DNA from: Spirochaetota bacterium
GTDB taxonomy: Bacteria > Spirochaetota > Spirochaetia > Treponematales > Rectinemataceae
DNA length: 64,000 nt
Reading direction: 5' to 3'
Assembly (NCBI GenBank): GCA_029265615.1
Contig: JAJUIB010000001.1
Span: forward strand, 62,001-126,000
In this document: piece by piece, positions 48,494 through 58,669 of the stretch
Layout: every line of letters begins with the position of its first letter
Numbering within the stretch: position 1 is the first letter of the stretch
The notes under the pieces: model-generated
What the model was told of the DNA's origin: nothing
Seen by the model: only the letters and a program-made list of their open reading frames with translations
The model's database searches: none
Translations under genes and position numbers: made by a program

Positions 48494-48522
48494 ATTATAG
48501 CGCGGCCGCCCCTCCATCGGAA
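48494..48522 (-). promoter_or_regulatory. Promoter of the GH57-like gene
   Basis: On the minus strand, TTCCGA (48517-48522) and a perfect TATAAT (48494-48499) are 17 bases apart. It lies inside the last codons of rnfB, giving a leader of about 30 bases before ATG 48461. Confidence 0.6.
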
Positions 48523-49367
48523 GCGGATTTGACCTTTTTTTCGCGAGGAAGCTCAGGTGTGCCACCTGAACGGACGATGGCGCCCGAGGGGCAGCGTGCT
48601 GCGATTGCGGCCCATGCGGAGGACTCATCCTCCCTGAGCCGAGTGGAGGCCCGCGCCCGGCCTTCTTCTAGGGAAAACTCCCAAGAGGGGGAAAGCCGCG
48701 CACATTCACCGCAGGCGTCGCAGGCACGCGTACAGTCGGCCTTGCGGCTCTCTGGCGGTCTGTGGGACGAGCAGGCTACAAACCAGCGCGCGGTACGGGG
48801 CACCAGGGCGATAAGGCCTTTGGGACAGGCGACGACACAGCGACCGCAGCCCGAACAAAGCTCGGGATCGACGAGGGCAAGCCCTTTGTCGATGGAGATA
48901 GCGCCGAGGGGGCAGGCTACACGGCAACTACCGAGCCCGAGACAGGCATCGGCACAGGCTCTGCTACCGCCATAAAGCCGTGCCGCGGACCAGCAATCGG
49001 CGCGGCCGTCGTAGGCGAAAAGCTCCCGCACCTCTCCTTGCCGTCCTCCACAGCGGACAACTGCGATGCGGGCTTCTTTGCGTTCATCCCCAAGGGCCGT
49101 GCGCAACGAGGCCTCAACCGCCTTCCCGCCCGGTGCGCACAGGGCCGGATCGGCGCCGTTCTCGACAAGCTCTCGCGCATAGTGGCGGCAGTCATCGGTA
49201 CCACAGAGCCCGCAGTTGTGGCCGGGAAGCAGCGCGAGGAGGGCGTCCACAGCGGCGTCTTTTCGCCATCGACGCTTCCAGGCCGTCGCGAGGTAAAAGG
49301 CGCCAAACGCGGATAGAAAGCCTATGCCGAGCCCCAGGGGGAGGCGTAGCCACTCCACTTCACCCAT
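48495..49367 (-). CDS. rnfB: Rnf complex ferredoxin-type subunit RnfB, with degenerate C-terminal cluster motifs
   Basis: 290 residues. One N-terminal membrane helix (about 8-28), then the RnfB-specific cluster CGLCGTDDCRHYA with a later CAPGG cysteine (about 52-78). Next is a region with DCWSAARLYGGSRACADACLGLGSCRVACPLGAI and a clear ferredoxin motif, CSGCGRCVVACP (about 170-182). The third motif reads CTRACDACGECARLSP, with serine for its last cysteine, and the final expected motif keeps only ARCPSGAI. So at least one usual 4Fe-4S site is probably lost. It passes electrons between ferredoxin and RnfC. It starts 2 bases after rnfA. Confidence 0.9.
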   Translation of the reverse strand: MGEVEWLRLPLGLGIGFLSAFGAFYLATAWKRRWRKDAAVDALLALLPGHNCGLCGTDDCRHYARELVENGADPALCAPGGKAVEASLRTALGDERKEARIAVVRCGGRQGEVRELFAYDGRADCWSAARLYGGSRACADACLGLGSCRVACPLGAISIDKGLALVDPELCSGCGRCVVACPKGLIALVPRTARWFVACSSHRPPESRKADCTRACDACGECARLSPSWEFSLEEGRARASTRLREDESSAWAAIAARCPSGAIVRSGGTPELPREKKVKSASDGGAAAL

Positions 49368-49369
49368 GT

Positions 49370-49951
49370 CTACCCCACCATGTTGCGGATGAATCCCGCA
49401 TCGATGCCCATAAAGGCCATAGCCATGAGCCCTGCCGAAGCAAGAATGGCGGGAGCGCCGCGCATGGCTACTGGCAGATCGGCAAGTTCAAGGCGCTCAC
49501 GAAGCGCATCGAGGAGCACGAGCGCCGCCCAATAGCCGAAACTTGCCGCGGCGCTTGAGGCGACTGCGGCGAAAAAGCCATAGTCTGAGCGTGCTGTCGT
49601 GAGCGCGACGCCGAACACGAGGCAGCTCACCGCGCTTTCGTCCGCAAGGGCTCCAATTTTCGCAAAGACCGCCCCGGCGTTTGCACCCGCGCGGGCGGCG
49701 TACTTCACAAGTGGCGCGACGAGCGCCATGAACATGATCGGCTCGAGCGCGCTAAGACCAAGCGGTGCAAGGACGAGCACACGGATGCTCCATAGAAGGA
49801 GTGCAGCCATGAGGTTCGTCAAGGTCAGCGCGACGAGTGCGGAAAGGGGGCTCTTGCGTTCGCGCTTAACCGCGGGGCAGACGCCAAGACCGTAGACCAG
49901 AAGGACATTCGCCGAAAAAACCGAGATGAGAACGATGCCGAGATAGCTCAC
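49370..49951 (-). CDS. rnfA: Rnf complex membrane subunit RnfA
   Basis: 193 residues, exactly the E. coli RsxA length, from GTG 49951 with AAGGAGG six bases upstream; the longer frame is a shadow. Six membrane helices. Family motifs: FSANVLLVYGLGVCP and, near residue 105, VKYAARAG. RnfA and RnfE are homologous and share an inner-membrane 2Fe-2S site through conserved cysteines; here only the N-terminal VYGLGVCP cysteine is obvious, with another at AVSCLVFG. It overlaps rnfE by 4 bases (GTGA). Confidence 0.94.
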   Translation of the reverse strand: MSYLGIVLISVFSANVLLVYGLGVCPAVKRERKSPLSALVALTLTNLMAALLLWSIRVLVLAPLGLSALEPIMFMALVAPLVKYAARAGANAGAVFAKIGALADESAVSCLVFGVALTTARSDYGFFAAVASSAAASFGYWAALVLLDALRERLELADLPVAMRGAPAILASAGLMAMAFMGIDAGFIRNMVG

Positions 49952-50565
49952 GGAAGCCTCCTTCCCCTCCGCCTGAGCGCCCATCGATAGACGGCCGCCA
50001 CAAGGCCGAGAAGCATAAAGCCGCCAGCGGGGCTTGCTAGGAGCCTGAAGGGCGGCGATGTCGTAAGGACGAGCACACGCGGCGCAAGACCTGCGTGGGG
50101 CAGGCTGAGCCGCCCCAGGCCGACAAGCTCCCGGAGCGCCGATATGGCCATGGCGGCAAGGAGGTAGAATCCCGCCATGATCACCATGCCGCGGAGCCCG
50201 CCTCCGCCCTCCTGTTCCGACCGAAGCCCTCGCTTTAACGCCGCAAGGGTGAGGCAATTGGCGGCAAGCAGAGGAAGATAGATGTCGAGGCCTGTAGCAA
50301 GAAGTGGCGAGTATGCGGCGATGATGAGGGCATAGACCGCCGCAAAGCCGGCCGCAAGTACCAGAGCCCCCGGTGCGCGAAGGCGTTCGGGGGCCATGGT
50401 GCGGAGCGAACGGGCGGCAAGCCCCAAAAGGGGCACCGAAAGCGCTACGCCAAGACCGAGAATCATGCCCGAAGCAAAGTCGCGGGCGGCTGCGACCAGG
50501 GGACAGAGCCCCAGAAAGGCGCCAAGCACCGGGTCGGGGGTGAACGCATCGCGCGGAGCTCCCAT
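49948..50565 (-). CDS. rnfE: Rnf complex membrane subunit RnfE
   Basis: 205 residues from ATG 50565 (MGAPRDAFTPDPVL), with AAGGAA upstream. Six hydrophobic segments. The family motifs VLGAFLGLCPLVAAA (cysteine of the membrane 2Fe-2S site) and LPLLAANCLTLAAL are present. It pairs with RnfA in the membrane electron path. It starts one base after the rnfG stop. Confidence 0.94.
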   Translation of the reverse strand: MGAPRDAFTPDPVLGAFLGLCPLVAAARDFASGMILGLGVALSVPLLGLAARSLRTMAPERLRAPGALVLAAGFAAVYALIIAAYSPLLATGLDIYLPLLAANCLTLAALKRGLRSEQEGGGGLRGMVIMAGFYLLAAMAISALRELVGLGRLSLPHAGLAPRVLVLTTSPPFRLLASPAGGFMLLGLVAAVYRWALRRRGRRLP

Positions 50566-50566
50566 A

Positions 50567-51103
50567 TTATTCCTTTTTCGAGACGTGTTTCGCCATATCG
50601 GAGAGCCGAGTGAGAAGCTTTCCCGTGGCGGCGAAACTCTCTGTCGCACCCGCAAGCGCATCGGGCCTGCGCGCCTCACGCGGTAGCATGGGATAGGGGC
50701 GTTCGGCGCCTTTTCCGACAAAATCGGAAAACCAGCCATCGCGCGCAATGGGGATGGACGCATCGCTCTCCCCTATCATTTCCGCCGCCTCAAGTTCGCC
50801 GTCCGCGGCAAAAACAAAGGCGACCATTCTCGACCGGCCTTGAGTTCCGAGGCACGCGACCGTGCCCAAGCGCGGCGCACCCTTTCCTTCGAGCCTGTAA
50901 AGGCGCACATTGTTCAAAGCGCTTCCGGAGACGGGCCGGGTGGAAACAGACCGCCCCGAAAGCCGCTCGAGCGCCACTCGCTCACGGGCGATGGTCGCAT
51001 GTTCGACAAGAATGGAGGCGGCCGTTACGAGAAGGGTGATAAGCCCTACGAGGGCCGCCGCGCTCAGATTCTCAATGAGGAGTTCTTTCCTCTGCCCATC
51101 CAT
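50567..51103 (-). CDS. rnfG: Rnf complex flavin subunit RnfG
   Basis: 178 residues. An N-terminal membrane helix (about 14-34) and a periplasmic FMN-binding domain. The covalent FMN site is the threonine in DALAGATES near residue 155; the usual S/T two residues before GAT's alanine is alanine here, but the D, GAT and final serine fit the ApbE transferase target. It carries electrons on the outer face. The start is directly adjacent to the rnfD stop. Confidence 0.92.
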   Translation of the reverse strand: MDGQRKELLIENLSAAALVGLITLLVTAASILVEHATIARERVALERLSGRSVSTRPVSGSALNNVRLYRLEGKGAPRLGTVACLGTQGRSRMVAFVFAADGELEAAEMIGESDASIPIARDGWFSDFVGKGAERPYPMLPREARRPDALAGATESFAATGKLLTRLSDMAKHVSKKE

Positions 51104-52195
51104 TTAGACCGCCTTCGCCGCGCGCCGCGACTGCGCGCCTATTTTCTCAAAAAGCGGAAGCGCACAGTCTGCTAGGATCACTGCAAAGGCGCTCCCCTCG
51201 GCCCGCGAGCCAAAACAGCGAAAGAGGAAGCTCAAGGAACCGATCACCATCCCGTAGACGAGCATGCCGCCGCGCCGCGAGGGAGAGGTGACCGGATCGG
51301 TTGCCATATAGAATGCAACGATGATGAAGGACCCTGAAAACAAGTTGAACAGCACGTCTCCTGCGAAAAATCCCGCGCCCTGGGCAAGGCCGCCAAAGAC
51401 CCAGGAAAGGAGCGCATAGCTTGCGAAAATAGCGGCGGGAATCTCCCAGCGGATCAGCTTGCGCGCAAGGAGATACACCGAGCCTGCAAGCAGGAGAATG
51501 CCCGATATTTCGCCGATCGTTCCCGGCCTGTTTCCCACAAGAAGATCCACATAGCCTGAGGGCAGGGATGCCCCGAATGGCTCGAAAAGCACGCGATTTA
51601 AGAAATCGGTGACGCTCCGGTCAAAGGGAGAAAACAGGTAGCCTGCTTGGCTGATGAGGCCGACCGGATCACTGCCTGCATGTCCTGCGGCAAGACTTTC
51701 GCGTACAAGGCCGAGGGGCGTGGCCCCCGAAATTCCCGCAATGCCGGTAAGCTGGCGCGGCATAACCCACTGACCCATAGCCTGCGGCCAGTTGAGCAGA
51801 GCAAACGCAAGCCCCGCGAGCGCAGGGTTCATCCAATTTGCGCCCAGTCCGCCAAAAGCGCCCTTGACAAAAGCGGTGGCAAAAAAGGCCGCAACGGCGG
51901 GCACGTAGAGCGGCACGCCCGGGGGCATGGCAAGTCCGAGGAGCAAGCCGCTTAAAAACGCGCTGCCGTCAACAAGGGTAAAGCGGCGCCGTACGAGGCC
52001 GACGAGCGCCTCGCCTGCGAGCGCGCCCAAAATTGCTGCGAGCGTCGTCATCGCGGCGCGGAGGCCGAAACTGTAGAGCCCCCACACAAGAGCCGGCACG
52101 AGCGCGGCGATCGTTCCCCACATGAGCGATGCGGTCGACTGGAGGGCATGAATGTGGGGTGCGTGGCCGATACGCATACGCAAATCCTTTTTCAT
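51104..52195 (-). CDS. rnfD: Rnf complex membrane flavin subunit RnfD
   Basis: 363 residues from ATG 52195, in the ATGA overlap with rnfC; upstream sequence in this frame is a shadow. About nine or ten membrane helices. The covalent FMN site is ISGATPLG (threonine near residue 163), and FGGLGANWMNPALAG and MATDPVTSPSRRGGM are conserved RnfD/NqrB motifs. It moves electrons across the membrane and is thought to help pump Na+ or H+. Confidence 0.94.
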   Translation of the reverse strand: MKKDLRMRIGHAPHIHALQSTASLMWGTIAALVPALVWGLYSFGLRAAMTTLAAILGALAGEALVGLVRRRFTLVDGSAFLSGLLLGLAMPPGVPLYVPAVAAFFATAFVKGAFGGLGANWMNPALAGLAFALLNWPQAMGQWVMPRQLTGIAGISGATPLGLVRESLAAGHAGSDPVGLISQAGYLFSPFDRSVTDFLNRVLFEPFGASLPSGYVDLLVGNRPGTIGEISGILLLAGSVYLLARKLIRWEIPAAIFASYALLSWVFGGLAQGAGFFAGDVLFNLFSGSFIIVAFYMATDPVTSPSRRGGMLVYGMVIGSLSFLFRCFGSRAEGSAFAVILADCALPLFEKIGAQSRRAAKAV

Positions 52196-53502
52196 GCGCT
52201 TTTCCCTCGTTTCACTGTCGCATCCCGCGCGCTTGCAAGCGCTTCGGACACCGTGAGGCGGGAGGGGCAAACGTAGCCACACAGGCCACAAGAGCTGCAG
52301 GACTCAAGTCCGGCTGCCCGGGCCGCCTCGAATCGCCCTGCGCTGACGAGGCGGTACAGGTGTGCTGGATCGAGCCGCTCGGGACAGCGTTCCGCGCAGC
52401 GTCCGCATCGAATGCAGGGCATGCGGCGTCTTGCCTGTGTCTCCTCCGCGCTGAGCGCGAGTACCGCCGAGGTTTGCTTGGTGACCGGCGCATCGAGATC
52501 ATACACGGCAACACCACGAAAGGGACCGCCTAGGACAATGCGTTCAGGTGATCCCACAAAACCGCCGCATTCCTCGATGAGATCGCCGATCGGCGTGCCT
52601 ATCCTCACCTTGAGCACCGCGGGCCGTTTTACCGCGCCGCCGGCGATAGTGACGTAGCGCTCGAGAAAAGGCTTGGCGAGCACAACTGCCTCGTAAACCG
52701 CAAAAGCGGTCGTAGGCCGAACAAACAGGGTTTCGCCTTCTGCATCGCGCCGCTTGTCCGCAAGCGCCTCACTCAGGCGCTCGGGCATATCCTGGGGATA
52801 GCGCGGCTCGAGCCTTATGCTCGCAGGTGTGGGGGTAAGCCGCGCTGCTGCTTCCTCGACACGCGCAGCGAGTTCAGGGAGCGTTGCGTCGAGGGCGAGG
52901 AAGCACTGTGTTGCTTGCGTCGCCGTGCGAAGGATGGCGAATCCTTCGAGCACCTCCCCTATCCGCCCGGCAAGGAGCATCGTTTCTGACTGAAGGTAGG
53001 GTTCCGATTCGAGTGCGTTGAGAACAAGGGTTGAGAAGCGCTTTTCTGGCCTCAGAACCTCGAACAGGGGCCGTGCAGGCTGCTCGGTCTCGGCGATGCC
53101 GCGATCCCGCAGGGTCTGGAGGATGTCTATGCGCGACATACTCTTCCAGAGATACCGTTCCTCTCGCTTGCCGAGCCGGTCAAACGAGCCCTCGAGCGCG
53201 ATCACCACGGCTTCGCAGTCCCCCCCCGAGGGCAGTCGCACGCGGCGAATATCGTACACGACACCCGGCAGTGGAGCGTGAATGGCCGCCTGGCCCGGTC
53301 CATCGGCACGGCCGATAAGCGCGCCTTCGCGTACAAGTTCACCGCGCCGGACAAGGCAGTGCGCTGCCGCACCTTCATGTTGCTTAAGAAGTACCGTTGC
53401 CGTGGCAGGAAGATAGGCATTCTGTACGGCGTCGTGATCTCCGCCGTTGCGGCGGAGATCGACGGAAAGGCCGCCGAATTTAAAGCTTCTAGAGAATTTC
53501 AT
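52192..53502 (-). CDS. rnfC: Rnf complex subunit RnfC lacking the FMN-binding loop
   Basis: 436 residues. It opens like RnfC (FSRSFKFGGLSVD, a barrel-sandwich part about 35-110) and ends with two intact 4Fe-4S motifs, CIRCGRCAERCPE and CSSCGLCGYVCPS. Between them the usual NADH/FMN segment is changed: GLGGAGFPTxVKL is replaced by ETEQPARPLFEVLRPEK, and NxAECEPYIT reads NALESEPYLQ. FMN binding and NADH oxidation are therefore doubtful. It overlaps the 529-residue gene upstream and rnfD downstream by 4 bases each. Confidence 0.9.
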   Translation of the reverse strand: MKFSRSFKFGGLSVDLRRNGGDHDAVQNAYLPATATVLLKQHEGAAAHCLVRRGELVREGALIGRADGPGQAAIHAPLPGVVYDIRRVRLPSGGDCEAVVIALEGSFDRLGKREERYLWKSMSRIDILQTLRDRGIAETEQPARPLFEVLRPEKRFSTLVLNALESEPYLQSETMLLAGRIGEVLEGFAILRTATQATQCFLALDATLPELAARVEEAAARLTPTPASIRLEPRYPQDMPERLSEALADKRRDAEGETLFVRPTTAFAVYEAVVLAKPFLERYVTIAGGAVKRPAVLKVRIGTPIGDLIEECGGFVGSPERIVLGGPFRGVAVYDLDAPVTKQTSAVLALSAEETQARRRMPCIRCGRCAERCPERLDPAHLYRLVSAGRFEAARAAGLESCSSCGLCGYVCPSRLTVSEALASARDATVKRGKSA

Positions 53503-55088
53503 GCTGCTTTCGCTCGCTCCAAGGCGGCCGCCCGCCTCGCACGCGGTAATCCGGCGAGGGCGCCATAGAGGGGCGGGGCCAGAAGGATTATATACAGAAG
53601 CGTCTTGATCGGCGCAAGCGGTTGCTTTGTACGGTGCGCAGTGCCGGCAAGCCGGATGCGCACATAGCCCCCTTGCGCAAGCACCATGCCTTCGACGCTC
53701 TGCGGCTTAAGCGTGCGATAGGCATTCCGCGCCCACGCTCCGTCGAAGACAGGTCCTGCCACGGACTTCCCTTTTGGCAGGGGAATGGCAAGCGGCGCAA
53801 AAGCCTCGGTCCGTTTGTCTCCCAGGGGTATGTAAAAGAGGGCCTCCTGGTATGCGCGGTGCGCAAGCCACTCGGCAAGGCCGGGAAGTTCGTCGGCCGT
53901 TCGCACCGCGATGCGCCGGGTTGCCTCCTCGGGGTCGGGACGAGCGCTTCCGGCCACGCGCTCGGGGCGGGGAAGCATGATTCCGCTTCCCTGCGCTTGC
54001 TCAGCATCGCGCCAGGGACGAACGTCGCGTGCAAGTCCGAAGCCGAGGATGACCGCCGTAGCGCCTACGATCGCTGCGCAACGGACAAGCCTGTCATTCC
54101 GACTCGCCCGTAGCGGTGCCGCCGAAAGAATGGGGAGTGGCCGGAACGTCGGGTGGCGCGCGCCATGTGGCGCTGAAGCCCCGGCCCGGCGTGCAAGAAG
54201 TGCGCACGACGCATAGGAGAGCGCTGCGGCACACGACGCACTGATCGCCGCGGGCATGAGCGATGGATGGAGGGCGAGGTAGCCTGCAAACGGCACGGCG
54301 AGTGCGCCCACTCCGGGGCTCGCCGTGCCGCGGCGCAGTGCCCGCAGTAAAAGGATGTGTGGAGAAAGACTGTCTTTCCGCTTTCGCGCAAGTGCAAGTT
54401 CATCTTCTGCCGCTTCAAACCTTTCCGCGGCTACCGCAAAAAAAGCTGTGGCAAGGAGCGCGGCGACCGCTCCTTCGAGGCCTGAAAGCGCAAGGGATGC
54501 AAGCGGCCCAAGGAGGGCAAGCCGCGCGCGTCGTCCACGCCGACGCACAAGGACAAGGAGGGTCGCGGCGAGCGCAAAGACTGAGACGAGCCCCCAGCGT
54601 AGTACGGGGCTGGGGGCGTATCGCCCTTCGGGGAGCACATAGCGGCCGTCGAAGGGAGTGAGCGCCCGTTTGAGGTTGCCGCCGCCCTCTCCCACGAGGT
54701 AGTACACACGGTAGCGTTGCGCCGCACCATCGGCGCCTATGCCCTCCGCGTGGAAGTATTGTACAAGGCGAGCAAGGTAGGAATCGGCGCGTGGATCGCC
54801 CGCGACAAGGCGTCTTTGCGCCTCTTTTAGCGTCGTTACCGCAAGCTTCTCATAATCGGAGATGACGACGGGCTGGGTGGATTCGCTCACGACGGAAGAA
54901 AACCCCGCCGTGAACAAGGCGGCAAGAACCTCGGACTCGGGAACGGCATCGTCCACGAGGAGTACGCGGTAGCCGTGCCACAGAGGATCCGCGGCGGCAT
55001 CGGGGCGGAGGACAAAGGCAAGAACTGCAAGAACCGCGGCCGCAATACCGCAAACTGCGCCCGAAAACCGCGCGCCGCGTCTCATCAC
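53499..55088 (-). CDS. Unknown multi-pass membrane protein heading the rnf operon
   Basis: 529 residues. N-terminal membrane helix (about 10-28); an external domain (about 35-165) with a first strand YRVLLVDDAVPESEVLAALF and a helical middle; then six or so hydrophobic segments (about 172-190, 196-230, 275-310, 350-370) and a second external domain (about 380-490, with PVFDGAWARNAYRTLKPQSVE); and a last helix (about 505-520). No cysteine cluster, nucleotide or heme motif is visible. It overlaps rnfC by 4 bases and begins 6 bases after the DUF212 gene, so it is made with the Rnf complex. I do not recognise a family. Confidence 0.8.
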   Translation of the reverse strand: MMRRGARFSGAVCGIAAAVLAVLAFVLRPDAAADPLWHGYRVLLVDDAVPESEVLAALFTAGFSSVVSESTQPVVISDYEKLAVTTLKEAQRRLVAGDPRADSYLARLVQYFHAEGIGADGAAQRYRVYYLVGEGGGNLKRALTPFDGRYVLPEGRYAPSPVLRWGLVSVFALAATLLVLVRRRGRRARLALLGPLASLALSGLEGAVAALLATAFFAVAAERFEAAEDELALARKRKDSLSPHILLLRALRRGTASPGVGALAVPFAGYLALHPSLMPAAISASCAAALSYASCALLARRAGASAPHGARHPTFRPLPILSAAPLRASRNDRLVRCAAIVGATAVILGFGLARDVRPWRDAEQAQGSGIMLPRPERVAGSARPDPEEATRRIAVRTADELPGLAEWLAHRAYQEALFYIPLGDKRTEAFAPLAIPLPKGKSVAGPVFDGAWARNAYRTLKPQSVEGMVLAQGGYVRIRLAGTAHRTKQPLAPIKTLLYIILLAPPLYGALAGLPRARRAAALERAKAA

Positions 55089-55094
55089 CGCCCC

Positions 55095-55574
55095 TTAGAT
55101 GGTCGAGAAGGCGAGCGCGATAAAAAAGCCGAGAAAGGCGCCGACCACCACCTGGGCTGGGCTGTGGCCCTGCACTTCCTTGACCGGATGGTAGGCGATG
55201 CCAAGCCGGGCCTGGAGCGCCTTACCGAGCTGGTTGAGCGCGCGCGCCTGAACGCCCGCAGAGCGCCGTACGCCCATCGCGTCGCGGATGACGATCAGTG
55301 CAAAAAAGAGGGCGAGCACAAAGACATCAGATCCGAAGCCGCGCTTGAATCCGATCGCGGTGGCAAGCGCCACCGCGAGGGAGCTGTGGCTCGAGGGCAT
55401 GCCGCCTGTACGCCACAAAAATGTCGCAACAACCTCTTTGAACGAGCGGGAGGGATAGGTGAAGAGATTAATGATCGCTTTGATAAACTGCGCAACCACA
55501 AGGCTGAACACAGCCGAGAGGAAGACAGGATTGCCGAACAAGCCAATCGGCTCGGGTTCAACCACGCCGCTCAT
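55095..55574 (-). CDS. DUF212 (divergent PAP2) membrane protein
   Basis: 159 residues, the family length. Four to five membrane helices. The motifs GGMPSSHSSLAVALATAIG, IVIRDAMGVRRSAGVQA and VKEVQGHSPAQVVVGAFLG are the DUF212 signatures and line up with PAP2 phosphatase motifs (SSHS with its histidine, GHSPAQV with its histidine). It is probably a phosphatase of a lipid or prenyl diphosphate at the membrane. It is first in the rnf operon, and its promoter overlaps that of the divergent rluA gene. No ribosome-binding site precedes the ATG. Confidence 0.93.
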   Translation of the reverse strand: MSGVVEPEPIGLFGNPVFLSAVFSLVVAQFIKAIINLFTYPSRSFKEVVATFLWRTGGMPSSHSSLAVALATAIGFKRGFGSDVFVLALFFALIVIRDAMGVRRSAGVQARALNQLGKALQARLGIAYHPVKEVQGHSPAQVVVGAFLGFFIALAFSTI

Positions 55575-56688: not shown

Positions 56689-56717
56689 ATACCAGTAGCT
56701 TGAAAGCGGAGGTAGCC

Positions 56718-57692
56718 ATGAGCGATACGCCGCGGGGCGTAAAGCGCCCCCGTTTCCGGTTCACAGCCGGGTCTATCCTCATCGCGCTCGTCGCGGTGCT
56801 GGTCGTGGCCTTCGGGGCCACGAGTTTCTTTGTCGTCGACCAGACCGAGCGCGCCGTGGTCACGACCTTTGGTAAATTTACGAAGGTGGCGGAGCCCGGC
56901 CTGCATTACAAGCTGCCCTTTGGCATCCAGAATAGCTACATTGTCAAAACCGAGGTGGTTCAAACCGAGCAGTTCGGCTTCCGGACCGAAAGGCCGGGCG
57001 TCGGCGAGTACACCAAGGGCGACTACAGCTCTGAGTCGACTATGCTGACGGGAGATCTCAACATCGTTGACGTCGAATGGGTTATCCAATACCGGATTAC
57101 CGATCCCAAGGCCTGGGTGTTCAACGTGAGCGACCGGCACAAAACGATTCGCGATATCTCGCAGTCGGTTATCAACCTCCTTGTCGGCGATCGGACCATC
57201 CTCGGCGTCATCGGCCCCGAGCGCATTGCCATCCAAGAGAGCGCGGTCCAGATGATGAATGAAACTTTTGCAAGCCTTGGCCTGGGCATACAGGTCTCAC
57301 AGGTCCAGCTGCAAAGCATCGTTCCGCCCAAGGGCGTGCAGGATGCTTTCGAGGATGTCAACAAGGCTATCCAGGACATGAACCGTCTCATCAACGAAGG
57401 CAAGGAAACCTATAACGCCGAGATTCCGAAGGCCCGCGGTGAGGCGGACCGCATCGTCGAGGTCGCCCAGGGCTATGCCACCGAGCGCGTCAACCGCGCG
57501 CGAGGCGATGTCGCCCGCTTCAATTCCGTGTACGAGGAGTATCGCAAGGCCCCCGATGTCACGCGCCAGCGCCTCTATTACGAGATGATGGATGAGGTAT
57601 TCAAGGGGACGAAGGGCATCGACCTCATCGACAAGCGCTTCACGAATTTCCTCCCCCTCAAGAACCTCGATCAGAAGGAGGCATCCCGATGA
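56718..57692 (+). CDS. hflK: FtsH-protease regulator HflK (SPFH/band 7)
   Basis: 324 residues from ATG 56718, with GGAGG upstream; the TTG at 56700 is less likely. A short basic cytosolic N-terminus, one membrane helix (about 18-38), then the SPFH domain outside (FFVVDQTERAVVTTFGKF, LNIVDVEWVIQYRITDPKAWVF), and a helical rod (about 225-310). With HflC it forms a large cage around FtsH in the membrane and controls protease access. FtsH is not in the window. Confidence 0.94.
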   Translation: MSDTPRGVKRPRFRFTAGSILIALVAVLVVAFGATSFFVVDQTERAVVTTFGKFTKVAEPGLHYKLPFGIQNSYIVKTEVVQTEQFGFRTERPGVGEYTKGDYSSESTMLTGDLNIVDVEWVIQYRITDPKAWVFNVSDRHKTIRDISQSVINLLVGDRTILGVIGPERIAIQESAVQMMNETFASLGLGIQVSQVQLQSIVPPKGVQDAFEDVNKAIQDMNRLINEGKETYNAEIPKARGEADRIVEVAQGYATERVNRARGDVARFNSVYEEYRKAPDVTRQRLYYEMMDEVFKGTKGIDLIDKRFTNFLPLKNLDQKEASR

Positions 57693-58669
57693 AGCGCCTC
57701 GTCGTTGCCATAGCCGTCATCATTGTTGCACTCATCGTGCTCGTCGCGCTTGGGCCGTTCTATATTCTGAACGAGGGCGAACAAGCGGTCGTCGTGCGGC
57801 TCGGCAAAATCGTCGCCGTTCAGTCCGAGGCGGGTCTTAAATTCCGCTCGCCCTTCCTCGACAACGTTGTCAAATTCCCCAAAAAAATACTGCCCTGGGA
57901 CGGTCAGCCCGAGCGTATCCAGACCCGGGAGAATCAATTCATCTGGGTGGACATGACCGCACGCTGGCGCATTGTCGATCCCGTGAAGTTTTATGAATCG
58001 GTCAACACCCTTGAGGGAGCCTATGGCCGCCTTGACGATGTTATCGATTCCGCAGTCCGCACGATCATTTCTTCGAACTACCTCCGCGAAGCGGTGCGTA
58101 ATTCGAACCGCCTCATCGGCACCGGCGCCAAGGAGAGCTTTCAGACCGGCGATGCCGAAGGCTCCGCCGCGCTCGAGCAGCTTACCCAGGGGCAAATGAG
58201 CTACGAGAACATTGAAAAGGGGCGGGATCGGCTTTCGAAGGATATGCTCGCTGTAGTTCAGTCAATCGTGCCTTCGTTCGGCATCGAGGTGCTCGACATC
58301 GTCCCCCGCCAGATCAAATACTCAGATGAGCTCACCGAATCGGTCTACCAGCGCATGATCAAGGAGCGAAATCAGATCGCACAGGCATTCCGCTCCTATG
58401 GAGAGGGCAAAAAGGCGGAATGGCTCGGCAAGCTTGAAAACGAAAAGCGATCCATTCTCTCAAGCGCCTATCAGAAGGCCGAAACAATCAAGGGCAAGGC
58501 AGACGCGGAAGCCTCGCGCATCTACGCCGACTCCTACGGACGGGATCCGAGCTTCTATGATTTCTGGCGGGCGGTTGAGTCCTATCGTCAAACCCTGCCC
58601 AATTTCAACAAAACGATATCCACCGACATGGACTACTTCCGCTATCTCTACGGCCCCCGCGGTCGTTAG
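57689..58669 (+). CDS. hflC: FtsH-protease regulator HflC (SPFH/band 7)
   Basis: 326 residues, ATG in a 4-base overlap with hflK. N-terminal membrane helix (about 4-26), SPFH domain (FYILNEGEQAVVVRLGKIVAV, VDMTARWRIVDPVKFYESV, SAVRTIISSNYLREAV), coiled coil with AYQKAETIKGKADAEASRIYADSYGRDPSFYDFWR, the classic HflC C-terminal motif. Partner of HflK in the same complex. Confidence 0.95.
   Translation: MKRLVVAIAVIIVALIVLVALGPFYILNEGEQAVVVRLGKIVAVQSEAGLKFRSPFLDNVVKFPKKILPWDGQPERIQTRENQFIWVDMTARWRIVDPVKFYESVNTLEGAYGRLDDVIDSAVRTIISSNYLREAVRNSNRLIGTGAKESFQTGDAEGSAALEQLTQGQMSYENIEKGRDRLSKDMLAVVQSIVPSFGIEVLDIVPRQIKYSDELTESVYQRMIKERNQIAQAFRSYGEGKKAEWLGKLENEKRSILSSAYQKAETIKGKADAEASRIYADSYGRDPSFYDFWRAVESYRQTLPNFNKTISTDMDYFRYLYGPRGR

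Follow-up and report, generated by a model that had tools for sequence, protein, structure and literature searches.

Described systems and the analysed gene cluster

The Rnf complex RnfABCDGE is represented by solved chains from C. tetanomorphum (7zc6), A. woodii (9eri) and A. vinelandii (8ahx). The published electron route leads from the riboflavin of RnfD to the two clusters of RnfC, then to the flavin mononucleotide (FMN) of RnfC and on to nicotinamide adenine dinucleotide (NAD+) (PMC9588780). In the sodium-translocating NADH:quinone oxidoreductase (Na+-NQR), the subunit NqrA is a relative of RnfC that has lost the NAD, FMN and Fe-S sites (PMC4014512), and an atypical, noncanonical RNF of T. 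pallidum was modelled as a flavodoxin:NAD+ pump (PMC7512555). A locus related to these systems was found in a 64,000-nucleotide stretch (hereafter, the window) of a 2.7-Mb spirochaete genome in 47 contigs. It consists of eight tightly packed minus-strand genes at 48495-55574, in the order DUF212–X529–rnfC–rnfD–rnfG–rnfE–rnfA–rnfB, where X529 denotes a 529-residue membrane protein. The cluster probably encodes an Rnf derivative with a one-electron Fe-S end and a conserved role other than NAD-linked ion pumping.

The six Rnf subunits are encoded together and are homologous one to one to those of RnfABCDGE, RnfG being recognised by its position and by a hidden Markov model (HMM) built from relatives. 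Like RnfABCDGE, the window retains the RnfC clusters, the cysteines of RnfA and RnfE and the flavin motifs of RnfD and RnfG; unlike it, the window lacks the FMN/NAD site of RnfC and one RnfB cluster, has divergent RnfA, RnfE and RnfG, and contains in addition DUF212 and X529. Similar to Na+-NQR, with its NqrA, an RnfC relative is retained after loss of the NAD port, a precedent indicating that this port can go while the complex stays (PMC4014512). Unlike in Na+-NQR, RnfB is retained and RnfC has both clusters with all eight Fe-S cysteines, so that a cofactor-free subunit of the NqrA type is absent; NqrF, the FAD/2Fe-2S NADH module, was not found among the eight genes.

Loss of the FMN/NAD site in RnfC

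52192..53502, minus strand: rnfC, 436 residues, FMN/NAD site absent; TIGR01945, 284.2 bits, above the curated family cut-off of 245.95
53065..53100, minus strand: RnfC residues 135-146, GIAETEQPARPL, where the glycine-rich FMN loop GIVGMGGATFPT belongs
52999..53019, minus strand: RnfC residues 162-168, NALESEP (usual RnfC: NxAECEP)
52267..52416, minus strand: two intact 4Fe-4S motifs of RnfC, C363...C412, all eight cysteines retained

Alignment to the solved RnfC structures confirmed the initial annotation of this DNA in that the glycine-rich loop GLGGAGFPT is missing and both 4Fe-4S motifs are kept. In a gap-free alignment, GIAETEQPARPL lies opposite GIVGMGGATFPT of C. tetanomorphum RnfC (7zc6); in the alignment to chains 7zc6, 9eri and 8ahx an SGGLP-like segment is deleted from the window protein. 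All three flavin-pocket segments are altered, one of them by deletion. The substitution in NALESEP is present as annotated, but it is not by itself diagnostic of lost FMN binding, since NADEGDP stands at the place of NxAECEP in two FMN/NADH-type paralogues of the same genome. What counts in RnfC is that the glycine loop is lost and the SGGLP-like segment deleted. The fold was modelled with confidence despite the missing loop (predicted local distance difference test score, pLDDT, 89.1; predicted template modelling score 0.90).

A second RnfC, encoded on contig C37 of the same genome, has GMGGAGFPT, NGAECEP and PSGGLP intact, which indicates that the window RnfC is a specialised paralogue. In the window RnfC the published route would stop at the clusters, and NAD+ is very probably not reduced by this copy. 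The earlier doubt about NADH use was thus justified, and the sequences point to a real, conserved variant predicted not to use NADH; the designation of RnfC as an electron-input subunit was mistaken, RnfC being the output module in the ferredoxin-to-NAD flow (PMC9588780).

Other electron carriers of the cluster

48495..49367, minus strand: rnfB, 290 residues, with a transmembrane anchor, an N-terminal Fe-S domain, two intact 4Fe-4S motifs and a half-emptied ferredoxin domain
48591..48722, minus strand: RnfB C216-C259, ligand set C216, C219, C222 and C259 kept
49370..49951, minus strand: rnfA, 193 residues, GTG start at 49951; PF02508, E 4.3e-17
49948..50565, minus strand: rnfE, 205 residues, ATG start at 50565 behind AAAAAGGAATAAT; PF02508, E 1.3e-20
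50567..51103, minus strand: rnfG, 178 residues, very divergent, assigned by position and by the HMM from relatives
50642..50653, minus strand: putative covalent-FMN motif AGAT of RnfG (DALAGATES), kept; lost in several relatives
51104..52195, minus strand: rnfD, 363 residues; TIGR01946, 220.4 bits, above cut-off
51719..51730, minus strand: covalent-FMN motif SGAT of RnfD, kept

In two-cluster ferredoxin domains, each cluster draws three of its cysteine ligands from one motif and the fourth from the final cysteine of the other. In RnfB of the window one ligand set is kept and the other is gone: S226 replaces a cysteine, and the first three cysteines of the next motif are absent. Given the shared-ligand pattern, the four cysteines kept and four lost mean that exactly one cluster is missing, and the full ferredoxin cluster set of RnfABCDGE is not present. 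The serine-for-cysteine replacement and the remnant motif had thus been read correctly, but the two lesions represent a single event, the loss of one 4Fe-4S ligand set. The identical pattern was found in five relatives (G298, G281, G230, G267 and G270), all with an intact RnfC loop; it is therefore an older trait that predates the change in RnfC and is no sign of a changed donor. As evidence of altered electron input, the RnfB lesion was rejected.

RnfA (codons 49877-49879 and 49622-49624) and RnfE each keep both 2Fe-2S cysteines, so that the four ligands of the membrane cluster, lost in many relatives, are present, and flavinylation of RnfD and RnfG is predicted from their motifs. RnfA and RnfE score well below the family cut-offs (89.7 against 229.3 and 66.8 against 213.4 bits, respectively), and RnfG has no match in Pfam and none to an FMN-binding model. 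The description of RnfA, RnfD, RnfE and RnfG as normal accordingly holds for the cofactor residues and the RnfG flavin motif, but not for the overall similarity of RnfA, RnfE and RnfG to their families.

X529 and DUF212

55095..55574, minus strand: DUF212, divergent PAP2-family membrane protein (PAP212), 159 residues; Pfam PF02681, E 1.1e-42
53499..55088, minus strand: X529, 529-residue multi-pass membrane protein, GTG start with ATG as the next codon

With rnfE starting at ATG 50565 and rnfA at GTG 49951, neighbouring frames overlap slightly or lie a few nucleotides apart. The X529 and rnfC frames share 4 nt, as had been noted; X529 is not the first gene of the operon, as the DUF212 gene is located 6 nt upstream. 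With few exceptions, the conserved cluster of the relatives starts with DUF212, and X529 lies between DUF212 and rnfC almost everywhere.

No relative of X529 was found in Pfam, NCBIfam or the PDB, in agreement with its initial description as matching no known family. Its predicted layout includes a transmembrane segment, a 130-residue domain, several transmembrane segments, a 140-residue domain and a last transmembrane segment, and its AlphaFold2 model has a pLDDT of 83.6. An X529 profile matched in 68 of the 296 genomes of the phylum, every one of them in the class of the window, and an extended profile matched in 223 of the 297 genomes of the class. The idea of an additional membrane partner is thus supported, and X529, conserved across relatives, defines a new membrane protein family. 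X529 was not detected in two genomes (G010 and G039) that retain the remaining cluster.

The X529 family has no conserved cysteine or histidine, cofactor ligand or cofactor motif, and X529 as an electron carrier was rejected on this ground. X529 is not confined to loop-less RnfC: in at least nine sampled loci (G298, G281, G230, L175, L176, L178, L179, L180 and L183) it is located beside an RnfC with an intact loop. Consequently, X529 joined first and RnfC changed later, and X529 was rejected as the origin of the RnfC change. The proposal that the change operates through the new subunit is thus not supported, X529 adjoining intact FMN loops and having no cofactor ligand.

Outside the cluster, two adjacent SPFH genes (HflK/HflC-like, judged by eye) are located at 56700-58669, past a divergent pseudouridine synthase gene. 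A third pair of Rnf/Nqr-type membrane subunits, besides those on contigs C3 (window) and C37, is encoded in the same genome at G000:C35:4879-6100.

Distribution, stepwise loss and selection in the relatives

The cluster is conserved in families f1-f5 and much of the spirochaete class; named relatives include uncultured Spirochaetaceae, Gracilinema, Brucepastera and many termite-gut Treponema metagenome-assembled genomes. The features of the window cluster recur in dozens of genomes and are not due to chance. Among 80 named Spirochaetota loci, the FMN loop is lost at 73 and one is intermediate, while the eight RnfC cysteines are unchanged at all 80; they are likewise unchanged at 20/20 of the most degenerate loci outside family f7.

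The relatives fall into stages. In stage (i), X529 is present and everything is intact. In stage (ii), the loop is gone and all other carriers are kept (window, G003 and G015). In stage (iii), the RnfA/RnfE cysteines or the RnfG motif are being lost (G002, G004, G005, G008, G017 and G018). In stage (iv), comprising families f3, f5, f6 and f12, RnfB, the RnfG and RnfD motifs and the RnfA/RnfE cysteines are gone or nearly so and only the RnfC clusters remain, some f3 loci retaining a short RnfB-like remnant. In stage (v), represented by family f7 (main contigs of 0.9 Mb, Borrelia-like by size), RnfC and RnfD form one frame of about 770 residues, from which the Fe-S domain is absent (loci L090-L093); the RnfC cysteines are lost only here. 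In many degenerate loci the place of rnfG is occupied by an open reading frame of about 145-195 residues with one or two transmembrane segments and no flavin motif (L045, L048, L053, L054, L056-L058, L097, L101, L123, L125 and L128), probably an RnfG relic. The window appears to represent an early, nearly complete stage of the change.

In the RnfC tree, which has long branches and is unsure in its details, loop-less and loop-bearing forms are separated, with G030 (GMSGDGVPT, NAAESEP) between them. At locus L121 (G321) the RnfC loop is intact, the RnfA/RnfE cysteines are partly lost and RnfB was not found; its degeneration is apparently independent.

Frames are open in nearly all sampled genomes. 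Within genera, the ratio of nonsynonymous to synonymous substitution rates (dN/dS) is mostly 0.06-0.5, and 0.11-0.17 in f7, with synonymous sites near saturation in some pairs. Drift was rejected by these values, and purifying selection indicates that the cluster is not decaying. Transmembrane carriers and RnfB are lost stepwise, while the RnfC clusters, X529 and the core remain under selection, which argues for a function other than NAD-linked ion pumping.

Reduced genomes

The genome G039 (1,139,633 bp), whose size fits T. pallidum Nichols, contains DUF212 directly before a 539-residue RnfC frame, followed by RnfD, RnfE and RnfA (locus L089). The RnfC clusters are kept; the FMN loop, the RnfA/RnfE cysteines and the RnfD motif are absent, and RnfB and X529 were not found at the locus. 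The loop-less kind is the only Rnf detected in G039, as its counterpart is in family f7. The gene set DUF212-RnfC-RnfD-RnfE-RnfA of G039 is of the same kind as the noncanonical RNF of T. pallidum; unlike the flavodoxin:NAD+ pump model, the locus has no FMN loop, RnfB, RnfA/RnfE cysteines or RnfD motif (PMC7512555). It does not fit this model, unless RnfG or RnfB parts are encoded elsewhere in the genome.

In family f7, X529 starts like a lipoprotein (lipobox LISC) and prfB lies after the cluster. Larval ticks yielded no transposon mutants of the ‘putative lipoprotein’ bb0071 (PMC6516651). The lipobox and the downstream prfB suggest that X529 of f7 may be bb0071.

Possible association of X529 with flagella

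In the family of the window, the cluster was found in exactly the 11 genomes with a strong FliG match, one of which has no X529; none was found in the 19 genomes that lack such a match. Class-wide, FliG is present in 238 and X529 in 223 of the 297 genomes; among the 218 genomes with a strong X529 match, in counts compared by hand, just three have no FliG match, and all three have FlhA. No strong X529 match was found in the sampled lineages without FlhA. Flagellar genes are present and X529 is absent in genus g48, G039 and f16; g48, whose FliG matches are weak, was rejected as aflagellate because FlhA is present, and most of its members have no X529, which weakens the link. The RpoB tree, in which row G037 is misplaced and from which G030 was excluded, contains only two independent flagellar losses, where at least six would be needed, and the link of X529 to flagella is therefore not significant. 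It is a lead and not a result. In G030, rpoB (G030:C62:3485-7782) is broken across several frames, probably by assembly errors.

Proposed function and alternative explanations

The cluster would be a derived form of the ancestral Rnf pump that is specific to spirochaetes, and the genome also retains an ordinary Rnf. In the window, electrons could still travel in either direction between ferredoxin and the RnfC clusters, via RnfB, RnfA/RnfE, RnfG and RnfD, but their pairing for NAD+ would no longer be possible. The former NAD output port would be a one-electron Fe-S end, serving a soluble partner or redox-state reporting. Since the RnfC clusters are the most strictly kept of all carriers, these clusters together with RnfD, RnfE, RnfA, X529 and DUF212 are taken as the working unit, a putative membrane platform in which the RnfC clusters would sense or pass single electrons. 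The full transmembrane chain of the window would be an ancestral feature, and the conserved role likely requires no transmembrane electron flow. The specific role is a matter of guesswork. A possible, rather doubtful version is that no electrons cross the membrane and that the cluster serves motility or the envelope around the periplasmic flagella with the RnfC clusters as a sensor, the Lyme- and syphilis-type spirochaetes keeping a redox-poor or iron-free live relic.

Several points weigh against a role other than ion pumping. Nearly all carriers remain in the window copy, which could still work as an electron-transfer pump that serves a new partner; other residues might bind FMN; no soluble partner gene is present within the cluster; RnfG of genus g23 in family f4 has a dN/dS of 0.99, on a frame overlapping its neighbour; and the support comes from sequence and models, the roles of X529 and DUF212 being putative.

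A working ion-pumping Rnf with a new redox partner, in line with the initial reading, fed by ferredoxin via RnfB and with single electrons leaving the RnfC clusters or the periplasmic RnfG flavin for an acceptor other than NAD+, is a minority possibility. The remaining carrier sites are indeed all present in the window, G003 and G015; however, G008 and G017, which belong to the family of the window, have neither the RnfA cysteines nor the RnfG motif, yet their cluster is still under purifying selection, and X529 has no ligand with which to accept electrons. Because of such carrier losses, which in this family also affect the RnfE cysteines, the initial suggestion of another electron donor is too narrow. 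It is unlikely that RnfC binds FMN/NAD(H) in an unusual manner within an ordinary complex: E and P of NALESEP are as in NuoF-type sites and the domain fold is predicted intact, but all three conserved flavin-pocket segments are changed, one being deleted, and further carrier losses occur throughout the loop-less side of the RnfC tree. A decaying redundant copy, made dispensable by the canonical Rnf and drifting, as the graded motif loss, the high divergence and the canonical copy might suggest, is highly improbable in view of the open frames, the low dN/dS, the invariant RnfC cysteines and its place as the sole Rnf detected where genomes are reduced, as in G039 and f7.

Implications

If an Rnf derivative with a one-electron Fe-S end is indeed encoded here, NQR would be joined by a second, independent example of an Rnf re-purposed via loss of the NAD port, and intermediate stages of this re-purposing would still be alive within one bacterial class. 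Provided that G039 has been matched correctly, the supposed Rnf of T. pallidum would be of the degenerate kind. A flavodoxin:NAD+ Rnf underlies the energy model of T. pallidum (PMC7512555), but at the matching locus of G039 the RnfC clusters are the only ones left of the usual carriers. The content of this locus makes the question of the T. pallidum Rnf testable.

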